Shown here piece by piece: positions 9,577-12,390 of a stretch of DNA of 12,390 bases. A program made the translations under genes and the position numbers. The stretch is from an uncultured Alphaproteobacteria bacterium (GTDB taxonomy: Bacteria; Pseudomonadota; Alphaproteobacteria; HIMB59), in assembly GCA_902575725.1 (NCBI GenBank), contig CACGSS010000012.1, positions 1-12,390 of the forward strand, written 5' to 3'. Position 1 is the first letter of the stretch, and each line of letters begins with the position of its first letter. The notes beneath the pieces were generated by a model. The model did no database searches. It worked only from the letters and a program-made list of their open reading frames with translations, and had not been told where the DNA came from.

Positions 9577-10296
9577 GTGTATTTCAAAGGAATAAATTCT
9601 TATGGAGATCGGGGTTTAGTCTTAGATTTTGGAAATGAAACCTCAAAATCTATATCACAGGAGGTAAATGAGGCATTTTTAAATATTTCAAACCTTAATC
9701 TTCAATCACTAAACATTGTTCCCTCATTTAATAAAATTGTTGTAATTTTTGAAAATTCTAAAATACGAGATCAAAATAAAGACAAAATTAGTATAGAAAT
9801 GAGAGATACAAACTCTCAAACTAACAAAAAAATCAATAAAACATGGGAAATACCGGCATGTTATAATGAAGACTTTGCTTTAGATATTAAGATCATCCAA
9901 AAACTTCACCAGATTACAAAAGAAGAAGTTATCAATCTTCACTCATCAGTTCGTTACTATACATATTATATAGGCTTCATGCCGGGTTTTCCATATTTAG
10001 GGGATGTTCCATCCCAATTAATTACACCGCGGTTACCTACTCCAAGGGTAAAAATTCCTGCTAGATCCATTGGCATAGCAAAAAACCATACCTGTATATA
10101 TCCAAAAGTTTCACCTGGAGGTTGGAATATAATTGGACAAATACCATTTGATATTTTTGATTTACAAAGTCCTAAGCCTTCCCTTTTTCTTCCAGGTGAT
10201 GAAGTAAAATTTTACTCCGTATCACTTTCAGAGTTTCAAAAAATTAGAAAATATAATTTTTCTTTAAATGAATTGATCAAGGAATACTCGTCATGA
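9577..10296 (+). CDS. pxpB: 5-oxoprolinase subunit B (KipI-like)
   Basis: PxpB is one of three subunits of the prokaryotic 5-oxoprolinase and forms a complex with PxpC. In Bacillus the homologue KipI inhibits the sporulation kinase KinA. The 239-residue protein shows the family's C-terminal cyclophilin-like domain: YYIGFMPGFPYLGDVP (130-145), PRLPTPRVKIPARSIGIA (151-168), YPKVSPGGWNIIGQ (175-188) and FLPGDEVKF (204-212). The N-terminal part, beginning with INSYGDRGLVLDFG (6-19), is the usual more variable domain. The start is GTG at 9577, as no in-frame ATG lies nearby. There is no ribosome binding site, but a TATGAT hexamer ends six bases before it, so a leaderless transcript is possible. 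The stop overlaps pxpC by four bases (ATGA), indicating tight coupling. Confidence 0.95.
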   Translation: MYFKGINSYGDRGLVLDFGNETSKSISQEVNEAFLNISNLNLQSLNIVPSFNKIVVIFENSKIRDQNKDKISIEMRDTNSQTNKKINKTWEIPACYNEDFALDIKIIQKLHQITKEEVINLHSSVRYYTYYIGFMPGFPYLGDVPSQLITPRLPTPRVKIPARSIGIAKNHTCIYPKVSPGGWNIIGQIPFDIFDLQSPKPSLFLPGDEVKFYSVSLSEFQKIRKYNFSLNELIKEYSS

Positions 10297-11171
10297 ACTC
10301 AATCATAATCACTCGTGCAGGGACTCATTCAACCATACAAGACTTTGGAAGATTTCAATGTCAGCACTTAGGAGTTTCACCAAGTGGAGCAATGGACCAA
10401 AGAATTATTAAAGAACTACAAAAAATTATACCCAACCATCAAAATCAATTTCTAGAATTTGCATATGTGGGACCATCAATAAAAGTAAAAGAAGGATCTG
10501 TTAAGATTTGTGTTGGTGGTAATTGTAATATGAGTATTCAGAAAAATAACAACAGCCAGCTTGAGTGCCAGCCCTATAAAAGTATTAATTTATTTGAGGG
10601 TGATGAATTGATTATTCACAATACAATAGACTCAGTATATGGATACATAGCTTTTGAGCATGGACTTGGGTTAGAGCCTTGTCTTAATAGCTACTCTACT
10701 GACACAAAAGCAGGAATAGGTTCGATTAATCGACTTTTAAATGATGAAGATATATTTCACATTAGCAAAGATGTAAGCTCTTGGGATCTTATCTCTATAC
10801 CAGAACCTGATTTAGAGAAGGTAACCAATTTCAAAGTTTATCCCGGTCCTCAACTTCAATATTTCTCAGACAATACTCTACAATCTTTTATTAGCGGTGT
10901 TTTTACAATAACTAATCAAAGTGATCGAATGGGTATCAGGCTCAAAGGTGAGAGTCTCATTAGTTCTAAGTCTCATGATATTTTGTCTGAAGGAATATTA
11001 CCTGGGTCTATTCAAGTGCCAAGTGATGGGCAACCCATTGTATTAATGCGGGACATTCCTTGTACTGGCGGGTATCCAAAAATTGCAATTTTAAATGAAG
11101 TGGATATTTCAAGAATCTCTCAGCTCCCCCCTGAAACCAAAATCACCTTCGATTTACAAACAATCTATTAG
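10293..11171 (+). CDS. pxpC: 5-oxoprolinase subunit C (KipA-like, biotin-dependent carboxyltransferase-type domain)
   Basis: PxpC pairs with PxpB in 5-oxoproline hydrolysis and belongs to the fold shared with urea amidolyase and allophanate-related enzymes. The 292-residue protein carries AGTHSTIQDFGR (9-20), LGVSPSGAMDQ (26-36), VYPGPQ (182-187), NQSDRMGIRLKG (208-219), EGILPGSIQVPSDGQPIVLM (233-252) and TGGYPKIA (258-265). These are all standard blocks in the standard order. It is slightly shorter than the 310-330 residues common for the family, and the C-terminus ends soon after the last conserved strand, but no truncation is apparent. A ribosome binding site, AAGGAA, lies eight bases before the ATG, and the ATGA overlap with pxpB adds coupling. 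The photolyase-like gene follows after 24 bases. Confidence 0.95.
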   Translation: MNSIIITRAGTHSTIQDFGRFQCQHLGVSPSGAMDQRIIKELQKIIPNHQNQFLEFAYVGPSIKVKEGSVKICVGGNCNMSIQKNNNSQLECQPYKSINLFEGDELIIHNTIDSVYGYIAFEHGLGLEPCLNSYSTDTKAGIGSINRLLNDEDIFHISKDVSSWDLISIPEPDLEKVTNFKVYPGPQLQYFSDNTLQSFISGVFTITNQSDRMGIRLKGESLISSKSHDILSEGILPGSIQVPSDGQPIVLMRDIPCTGGYPKIAILNEVDISRISQLPPETKITFDLQTIY

Positions 11172-11184
11172 CACAGATTTTATG

Positions 11185-11190
11185 TATAAT
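11185..11190 (+). promoter_or_regulatory. Consensus -10 hexamer before the photolyase-like gene
   Basis: An exact TATAAT occurs in the 24-base gap after pxpC and ends five bases before the GTG start of the next gene. No good -35 is seen at 16-18 bases upstream. No Shine-Dalgarno lies between it and the start, so if used it would give a leaderless or near-leaderless transcript. In AT-rich DNA an exact hexamer can occur by chance. Confidence 0.4.
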
Positions 11191-11195
11191 TAAAA

Positions 11196-11933
11196 GTGAA
11201 AATCTCAAGTGTTCAAGATCTAATACCAATATCGAAAAATTCGAATAGCTCCATGTTATCAAGACATGATGCACTGGAAAAATTCAATTCTTTTAATCCT
11301 GCTCTCTATGCAAAAACAAGAAACTTTTTGAATGGACAAATTTCAAGATTATCAGCCCATATAAAATATGGAATCATCACTAACAAAGAGCTCTATCAAT
11401 ATATTCGAGAAAAATATAATTTTGTTGAGAGTGAAAAGTTTATTCAAGAATTAGCATGGAGAGATTTTTGGAGAAGCTATGCCTACCATCATCCTGATCA
11501 ACTATGGACAGATGTAGAAGAATATAAAACTGGATTTCAAGCTCAAGAATATCAAGATAACTTGCCTGAGGATGTTATGTCAGCAACAACACCAACACAG
11601 ATTATTAATATTTTCATCGAGCAACTCACTAGCACTGGGTACCTTCATAACCATGCACGTATGTATTTGGCTTCTTATATTATTCACTTTAGAAGAGTGA
11701 AGTGGCAAGCTGGAGCAAAGTTTTTTATGAGTCATTTACTGGATGGAGATATTGCAAGTAATAACTTCTCTTGGCAGTGGATCGCGAGTACCTTTGCAGG
11801 AAAACCTTATATATTTAATTTAGAAAATGTTCACAAATACTGTCACAAAAGCATAGATATTATCCCTGAGAAGAATAGAGAAATAGATGGCAGCTATGAA
11901 GAAATTAGCTCGAGGCTCTTTCCCAATTTATGA
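11196..11933 (+). CDS. Stand-alone FAD-binding domain of the DNA photolyase/cryptochrome family
   Basis: The 245-residue protein corresponds to only the C-terminal, FAD-binding half of a class I photolyase or cryptochrome. Visible blocks are SRLSAHIKYG (50-59), FIQELAWRDFWR (82-93), the TSTGYLHNHARMYLAS segment (145-160), KWQAGAKFFMSHLLDGD (169-185) and NNFSWQWIASTFAGKPYIF (189-207). By recalled alignment to E. coli photolyase, substrate-pocket residues E274, W277, N341, M345 and W384 are kept (E85, W88, N152, M156, W195), as are FAD-side D372, D374 and N378 (D183, D185, N189). Two of the three electron-transfer tryptophans are present (W170, W193), while the third aligns with Y110. The start is GTG 11196, and ATG 11253 is an alternative near the domain edge. 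Its TGA overlaps the next gene by four bases, and that gene resembles the missing N-terminal half. DNA repair or light sensing are both possible. Confidence 0.9.
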   Translation: MKISSVQDLIPISKNSNSSMLSRHDALEKFNSFNPALYAKTRNFLNGQISRLSAHIKYGIITNKELYQYIREKYNFVESEKFIQELAWRDFWRSYAYHHPDQLWTDVEEYKTGFQAQEYQDNLPEDVMSATTPTQIINIFIEQLTSTGYLHNHARMYLASYIIHFRRVKWQAGAKFFMSHLLDGDIASNNFSWQWIASTFAGKPYIFNLENVHKYCHKSIDIIPEKNREIDGSYEEISSRLFPNL

Positions 11934-12325
11934 ACTTAATTTATTTATATGACGAGTTTATGAGAGTGCCAGCCGGTATTGAGGGTAATCCTGTTTACAT
12001 CTTTGATGATACTTTAACAGAAGGCTATGAGCTTAGTGACAAAATCATTGAAAATAGATACTTTTTAGCCAAAGAGGCAGGGGCTGAAATCTATAGAGGT
12101 AATACATATGAGATATTGCAAGAAATTCATAACCAAAACACCATATCCAAAATTATAACAAAATCTACTTTTAGACCTATTTACCAAAATTTGTTTCAAA
12201 AATTCGGTGAAAAATATGATTTAGAGCAGTTACCCGATTACTTCTTATTGCAGGAGAATTATCTTCATCCAGCAAAAAGATTTTTTCAGTATTGGAACAA
12301 AATTAAGAAAAATTTAAAATATTAG
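11930..12325 (+). CDS. Small protein resembling a reduced N-terminal alpha/beta domain of photolyase
   Basis: The 131-residue protein is not a standard annotated family to me, but its layout follows the photolyase antenna domain. It has a first strand, LIYLYDEF (3-10), then NPVYIFDD (20-27), a helix with ENRYFLAKEAGAEIYRGNTYEILQEI (41-66), and ISKIITKSTFRPIYQNLFQKF (72-92). In photolyases these places hold the first strand with WFRxDLRxxDN, the strand giving V-x-x-V-F-x-x-D, the helix and strand ending in a G-x-x-x-x-v-l region, and a strand followed by a Y-E-P-Y-like turn. The WFRxDLR motif and the DN are absent and the segment between strands one and two is shortened. A basic aromatic tail (110-131) ends the protein. 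The ATGA overlap with the FAD-domain gene strongly suggests the two products act together. A chromophore site cannot be asserted. Confidence 0.6.
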   Translation: MNLIYLYDEFMRVPAGIEGNPVYIFDDTLTEGYELSDKIIENRYFLAKEAGAEIYRGNTYEILQEIHNQNTISKIITKSTFRPIYQNLFQKFGEKYDLEQLPDYFLLQENYLHPAKRFFQYWNKIKKNLKY

Positions 12326-12327
12326 TC

Positions 12328-12390
12328 ATGGCTGAAAAATGCAAATATTGCGAGGGAGAGTTATCAGTCATGGACAGTGTGTATATTGAA
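12328..12390 (+). CDS. Start of a small CxxC-containing protein (3' end outside window)
   Basis: Two bases after the preceding stop, an ATG opens a frame that stays open for 21 codons to the window edge. The visible peptide has a CKYC pair at residues 5-8 followed by an acidic stretch, which looks like the first half of a zinc-binding or redox CxxC site. The tight spacing suggests it belongs to the same transcription unit as the photolyase-like genes. It is too short to assign a family. It does not show the CPVCGRPF pattern of DUF2256, a small protein sometimes found near photolyase genes. Confidence 0.5.
   Translation, partial: MAEKCKYCEGELSVMDSVYIE

Follow-up and report, generated by a model that had tools for sequence, protein, structure and literature searches.

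Photolyases of class I that repair cyclobutane pyrimidine dimers (CPDs), such as those of Escherichia coli and Anacystis nidulans, are single chains in which an alpha/beta domain precedes the domain that binds flavin adenine dinucleotide (FAD). At the right end of a 12,390-bp stretch of DNA from an uncultured marine alphaproteobacterium (contig CACGSS010000012.1; hereafter the window), by contrast, homologous domains are encoded in two chains with the FAD domain first: gene A for a short FAD-binding domain that keeps most of the lesion- and FAD-contacting residues of the class I enzymes, and gene B for a stand-alone alpha/beta domain (Table 1). We consider it probable, at about 70%, that A and B together make up one photolyase whose halves are produced as separate polypeptides, and we infer that they form a heterodimer.

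Described relatives of the gene pair

The closest described system is found in cyanobacteria. A two-gene cluster of Synechococcus WH7803 (SynWH7803_0267/0266) was noted in 2012 and suggested to encode a heterodimeric photolyase, according to the available passages of that paper (PMC3441193). The accessible parts of a second paper name the genes phr4 and phr5 and remark on their reversed order, on a fused version, phr6, and on possible frameshifting; they report a phenotype after ultraviolet (UV)-C but none after UV-B, a UV-C survival 20-30 times lower in a phr4 mutant of Synechococcus RS9916, and protection of an E. coli photolyase/SOS mutant by phr4/phr5 after UV-C (PMC9426592). Since the reversed two-gene arrangement is known as phr4/phr5 from these passages (PMC9426592, PMC3441193), a sequence-only reading of the window, which knew of no characterised two-gene, domain-swapped system, overlooked a precedent; of its split-photolyase interpretation the anatomy stands, whereas the lack of precedent and the class assignment discussed below do not.

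The Phr4/Phr5 proteins of marine Synechococcus, Cyanobium and Nostoc punctiforme resemble A-B in that the FAD-domain gene adjoins the photolyase-domain gene in reversed order, and in that a heterodimer has been proposed and a fused form exists (Phr6), as fused A-B forms likewise do. They differ in that all Phr4/Phr6 are reported, in the same excerpts, to carry four iron-sulfur (Fe-S) cysteines, which A of the window lacks, and in that phr4 and phr5 lie 7 bp apart (PMC9426592), whereas A and B overlap by 4 bp and belong to a marine alphaproteobacterium. A and B nevertheless belong to the families of the two cyanobacterial genes, the RS9916 pair being compared by description only: a profile of B built with no cyanobacterial rows (profile A3) finds B beside A in loci of Anabaena, Anabaenopsis and Nostoc.

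The short photolyase-like (SPL) proteins (Xu et al. 2021) are described, in the available passages of four papers (PMC9649867, PMC9178010, PMC9498864, PMC13274461), as a separate clade without the alpha/beta domain from which photolyases may have descended, with no mention of a partner gene there; the excerpts of one of them describe SPL as CPD-repairing and give it an Fe-S cluster (PMC9649867). Like SPL, A is short, has no alpha/beta domain in its chain and forms a clade of its own, but it has the partner B, and the A of the window is without the Fe-S cysteines. Family A would correspond to SPL, a class known here by description only. In the literature consulted, which included few subscription papers and consisted largely of passages, no paper was found that links SPL to a partner gene in organisms other than cyanobacteria. 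A further likeness is to NewPHL (Dinoroseobacter shibae, Methylobacterium mesophilicum; Phr7 in Prochlorococcus), in which the FAD domain also comes first and the other domain second, although NewPHL is a single chain in a separate clade, whereas A-B consists of two open reading frames (ORFs) whose A falls in the sister clade in a midpoint-rooted tree. B shows a weak profile similarity to the C-terminal part of NewPHL (probability 39, score 31.6 vs at most 19.9 in 40 shuffles). What is new here is the strict pairing of A and B across phyla, together with the Fe-S-free variant.

Table 1. The gene pair at the right end of the window.
Feature	Position	Strand	Description
Gene A	11196-11933	+	245 aa, GTG start; short photolyase FAD-binding (catalytic) domain
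Gene B	11930-12325	+	131 aa, ATG start; stand-alone photolyase alpha/beta (HUP-type, antenna) domain
ATGA overlap	11930-11933	+	A stop and B start; from sequence

The two proteins

A had been taken for the FAD-binding half of a photolyase, and it does match PF03441 (FAD_binding_7) at 1.2e-24, although the match covers only positions 1-134 of the 203 in the profile and so leaves out about 70 positions at the end of the domain; a profile match to 1tez/1owl reaches 2e-30. The Pfam match and the tree together describe a short chain without an N-terminal alpha/beta domain and in a clade of its own. In this midpoint-rooted tree of 98 FAD domains, whose bootstrap had not quite settled, which omitted 10 near-copies among the 80 scan loci described below, and whose reference rows were picked by length and domain order (14 NewPHL) or by layout (10 class I) and not from labelled references, the A-type proteins group together (99/99) away from class I, and their sister group is the 14 NewPHL-like proteins, which are themselves a separate clade (100/99) with A outside. 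The class I label given to A by the sequence-only reading was rejected on the basis of this tree.

Residues of A were mapped by hand onto the A. nidulans photolyase from a printed alignment. On this basis we take E85, W88, N152, M156 and W195 to be lesion-contacting positions and N189 to be the neighbour of FAD N5, while W193 and W170 are presumably the first two electron-transfer tryptophans. The A of the window keeps E85, N152, M156, W88, W195 and N189; among 81 rows of A, N152, W88, W195, N189 and W170 are invariant, E85 and M156 are each kept in 71 and W193 in 73, the other eight (L083, L102, L108, L109, L114, L115, L122 and L129) having F in place of W193. Conservation in the active site suggests CPD repair, as far as sequence can indicate it. 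The third electron-transfer tryptophan has no aligned counterpart in A, which resembles the tryptophan dyad reported for NewPHL in the accessible part of PMC8948257.

The A of the window contains one Cys only and no four-Cys Fe-S motif. The cysteine pattern occurs in 28 of 80 relatives of A and in 0 of the 10 nearest scan relatives, and the Fe-S type makes up one clade of 32 rows (98/99), which includes three fused proteins and a single row without the pattern (L120) and leaves the A of the window outside.

B alone matches no Pfam or NCBIfam family above cut-off, PF00875 included, and DUF3567, HAD, kinase and ubiquitin-like assignments were rejected as sub-threshold matches only. It has, however, the photolyase antenna-domain fold: photolyases and cryptochromes occupy VIA ranks 1-30, PF00875 is matched by 19 of 42 relatives of B at E<=1 (best 6e-06), and hhalign aligns 147 columns with photolyase N-domains vs 38 with USP. 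The residues conserved in the family are D26, K38, Y44, G57 and a C-terminal R117-F118-x3-W122, and all 9 weak matches of the B profile in 240 genomes of the class fall close to the N-terminal end of ORFs in which a photolyase FAD domain is encoded as well. Fold, family and profile evidence agree with the earlier identification of B as the alpha/beta antenna half, and an unrelated fold did not emerge; the profile check against PF00875 proposed at the time is positive for these 19 relatives and negative for window B itself.

Both ORFs, with their lengths and the ATGA overlap, were found as first described, and they are not chance frames. Comparison of 4 members (6 pairs each) gave dN/dS values of 0.05-0.09 for A and of 0.06-0.21 for B, and because of the latter, together with the overlap being kept in 29/29 genomes (see below), the reading of B as a pseudogene or as a chance frame was rejected. 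The overlap probably reflects translational coupling, and the two products would form a heterodimer. In such a complex, A would bind FAD and the lesion and split CPDs by blue-light electron transfer, with single-stranded DNA as a possible substrate, such as has been reported for NewPHL, while B would replace the usual N-terminal domain as a scaffold and might hold an antenna chromophore.

Pairing of A and B across genomes

Within the genus of the window, B is present in 29 of 37 genomes and absent in 8, and it occurs in 0 of 23 further genomes of the same order. All 29 B-bearing genomes have A directly upstream with the ATGA overlap, down to ~62% B identity, the exceptions in form being a B with a frameshifted C-terminus (G028) and a B truncated at the edge of a contig. 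The 8 genomes without B, which are only 55-93% complete, yielded no A of this kind either. One genome of the genus without the pair (G025) encodes a 383-aa NewPHL-like protein (L226), possibly a replacement for A-B.

A genome-wide scan with a diverse alignment of A, which favours close relatives because only the best 80 of 560 confirmed loci were kept, reached records whose titles name Alpha- and Gammaproteobacteria, Acidobacteria, Chloroflexi, Cyanobacteria and others. B lies within 154 bp downstream of A in 66 of these 80 loci, the offsets from A stop to B start, with B starts chosen by script, being -4 (31 pairs), -8 (11), -1 (7) and 1 to 154 bp (17); for each of the remaining 14, B is matched at another place in the same genome, in one case partially and in one 5.4 kb away. 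Surveys of whole genomes, in which visible breaks in the ranked scores served as cuts for strong matches, gave the same picture. In the class, strong A and strong B occur in the same 7 of 240 genomes (A at least 310 bits, next 165; B at least 131, next 25), and in cyanobacteria, where the B profile (A5) contained cyanobacterial rows, in the same 58 of 292 (A at least 262 bits in a search at E<=1e-40, next 221; B at least 68, next 35). B is at most 2.5 kb downstream of A in 39 of the 58 and not adjacent in 19, with 10 pairs at least 0.48 Mb apart on one contig, 1 at 5.4 kb and 8 on different contigs. Co-occurrence at such distances argues against mere hitch-hiking, although the pairs are not independent events, as the surveyed genomes are mutually related and many are incomplete. 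The genome survey suggested by the sequence-only reading thus found A and B together in every set examined.

The count of 58 excludes a borderline cyanobacterium, G337 (221 bits, without B), whose locus L234 is a minus-strand ORF of 451 aa with an A-like FAD domain (219-221 bits) and a C-terminal part ending in RSFSQFW, where the B profile touches at 6 bits; no B was found in the genome, and L234 is perhaps a further single-chain form.

One cyanobacterial genome joins A and B in a single frame of 582 residues. A protein search with this fusion, which by length favours fused proteins, gave 3215 matches, and among the best 120 the order is A then B in 120/120, the Fe-S cysteine pattern, loosely spaced, is found in all, and Cyanobium sp. 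accounts for two source names. The lists of homologous proteins covered the best 120 of 944, 5960 and 3215 matches. A natural A-B fusion (P0305), modelled by AlphaFold from an 80-row alignment, reached a pLDDT of 61.7, with a poor model over the A half.

Alternative explanations and implications

It seems unlikely that A-B is a blue-light sensor or another, cryptochrome-like flavoprotein without a role in repair. Repair by A-B could be redundant, given that G001, the nearest comparison genome (53% of sampled words common to the window), also holds three longer photolyase-family (PF03441) frames besides A, and E85 is Q and M156 is L in 10 of the 81 rows, 9 of which are then followed by a flavin amine-oxidase gene; the A of the window, however, keeps all six lesion- and FAD-contacting residues, and phr4/phr5 contributes to UV-C survival in Synechococcus, as the passages of PMC9426592 report. 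The two replacements always occur together (L090, L094, L096, L100, L101, L104, L106, L110, L113 and L119), and in all of these except L113 the amine-oxidase gene, of ~320 aa, lies -4 to 35 bp from B. PF01593 was matched by the neighbours of these nine and of L099 (10/10 tested), and the neighbour of L112 clusters with those of the Q/L rows; L099 and L112 keep E and M. The Q/L rows are possibly a non-repair subfamily with a third gene. Among 94 flanking proteins out of 106 picked, no context dominates, flavin amine oxidase being the commonest (12/94).

We give slightly less weight still to a (6-4) photolyase in place of a CPD photolyase, as suggested for Phr4/Phr5 in the accessible parts of PMC9426592. 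In its favour, phr4/phr5 matters after UV-C and not after UV-B. The basis of the suggestion, however, is the Fe-S cysteines, and these are absent in the A of the window and its ten nearest scan relatives, whereas the lesion-contacting residues of A match those of a class I CPD photolyase and SPL is described in excerpts as CPD-repairing (PMC9649867). Programmed frameshifting at the junction, raised for phr4/phr5 in the same partial source, would turn A and B into one chain, and both the existence of fused A-B proteins and the precisely kept phr4/phr5 spacing in marine Synechococcus (PMC9426592) speak for it; but the offsets fall in all three phases among the 66 adjacent pairs, and in 19 of the 58 cyanobacterial genomes A and B are not neighbours, so that recoding cannot be general, and frameshift fusion as a general mechanism was rejected; for A-B it is very improbable. 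That B is an unrelated HUP/USP-like nucleotide-binding protein, merely co-transcribed with A, has the least to recommend it and is barely credible in view of the VIA ranking, the PF00875 matches of its relatives, the far longer hhalign alignment with photolyase N-domains, and a co-occurrence that persists with the genes far apart. A two-chain photolyase is the reading that we prefer.

The window has a G+C content of 24-36% (1-kb steps), and its closest labelled relatives among the best 80 of 560 loci are uncultured Alphaproteobacteria and one Pelagibacteraceae. The A-B pair follows 5-oxoprolinase-type carboxyltransferase genes (CT_C_D, CT_A_B; window 9577-12390) by 24 bp, and a gene for a small CxxC protein (66 aa in L006) begins 3' of it; all of these possibly form one operon.

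In the surveyed sets, every genome with a clear short FAD protein, G337 being left out, encodes the missing domain as well, adjoining or elsewhere, and such genomes span Alphaproteobacteria, Cyanobacteria and further phyla. With an Fe-S-free variant in marine bacteria of small genome size, what the cluster does can be told apart from what the two-gene design does. A wider idea, which we lean somewhat against, is that the whole SPL class is an obligate two-protein photolyase with its alpha/beta domain always in trans, the canonical B-A order and the A-B order of NewPHL and Phr6 being separate fusions of two genes that were independent at first. If family A is SPL, the argument for SPL as a primitive, antenna-less form becomes weaker. 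The pairing predicts a trans-acting antenna or scaffold subunit, and assays of the short FAD protein alone may miss this partner.
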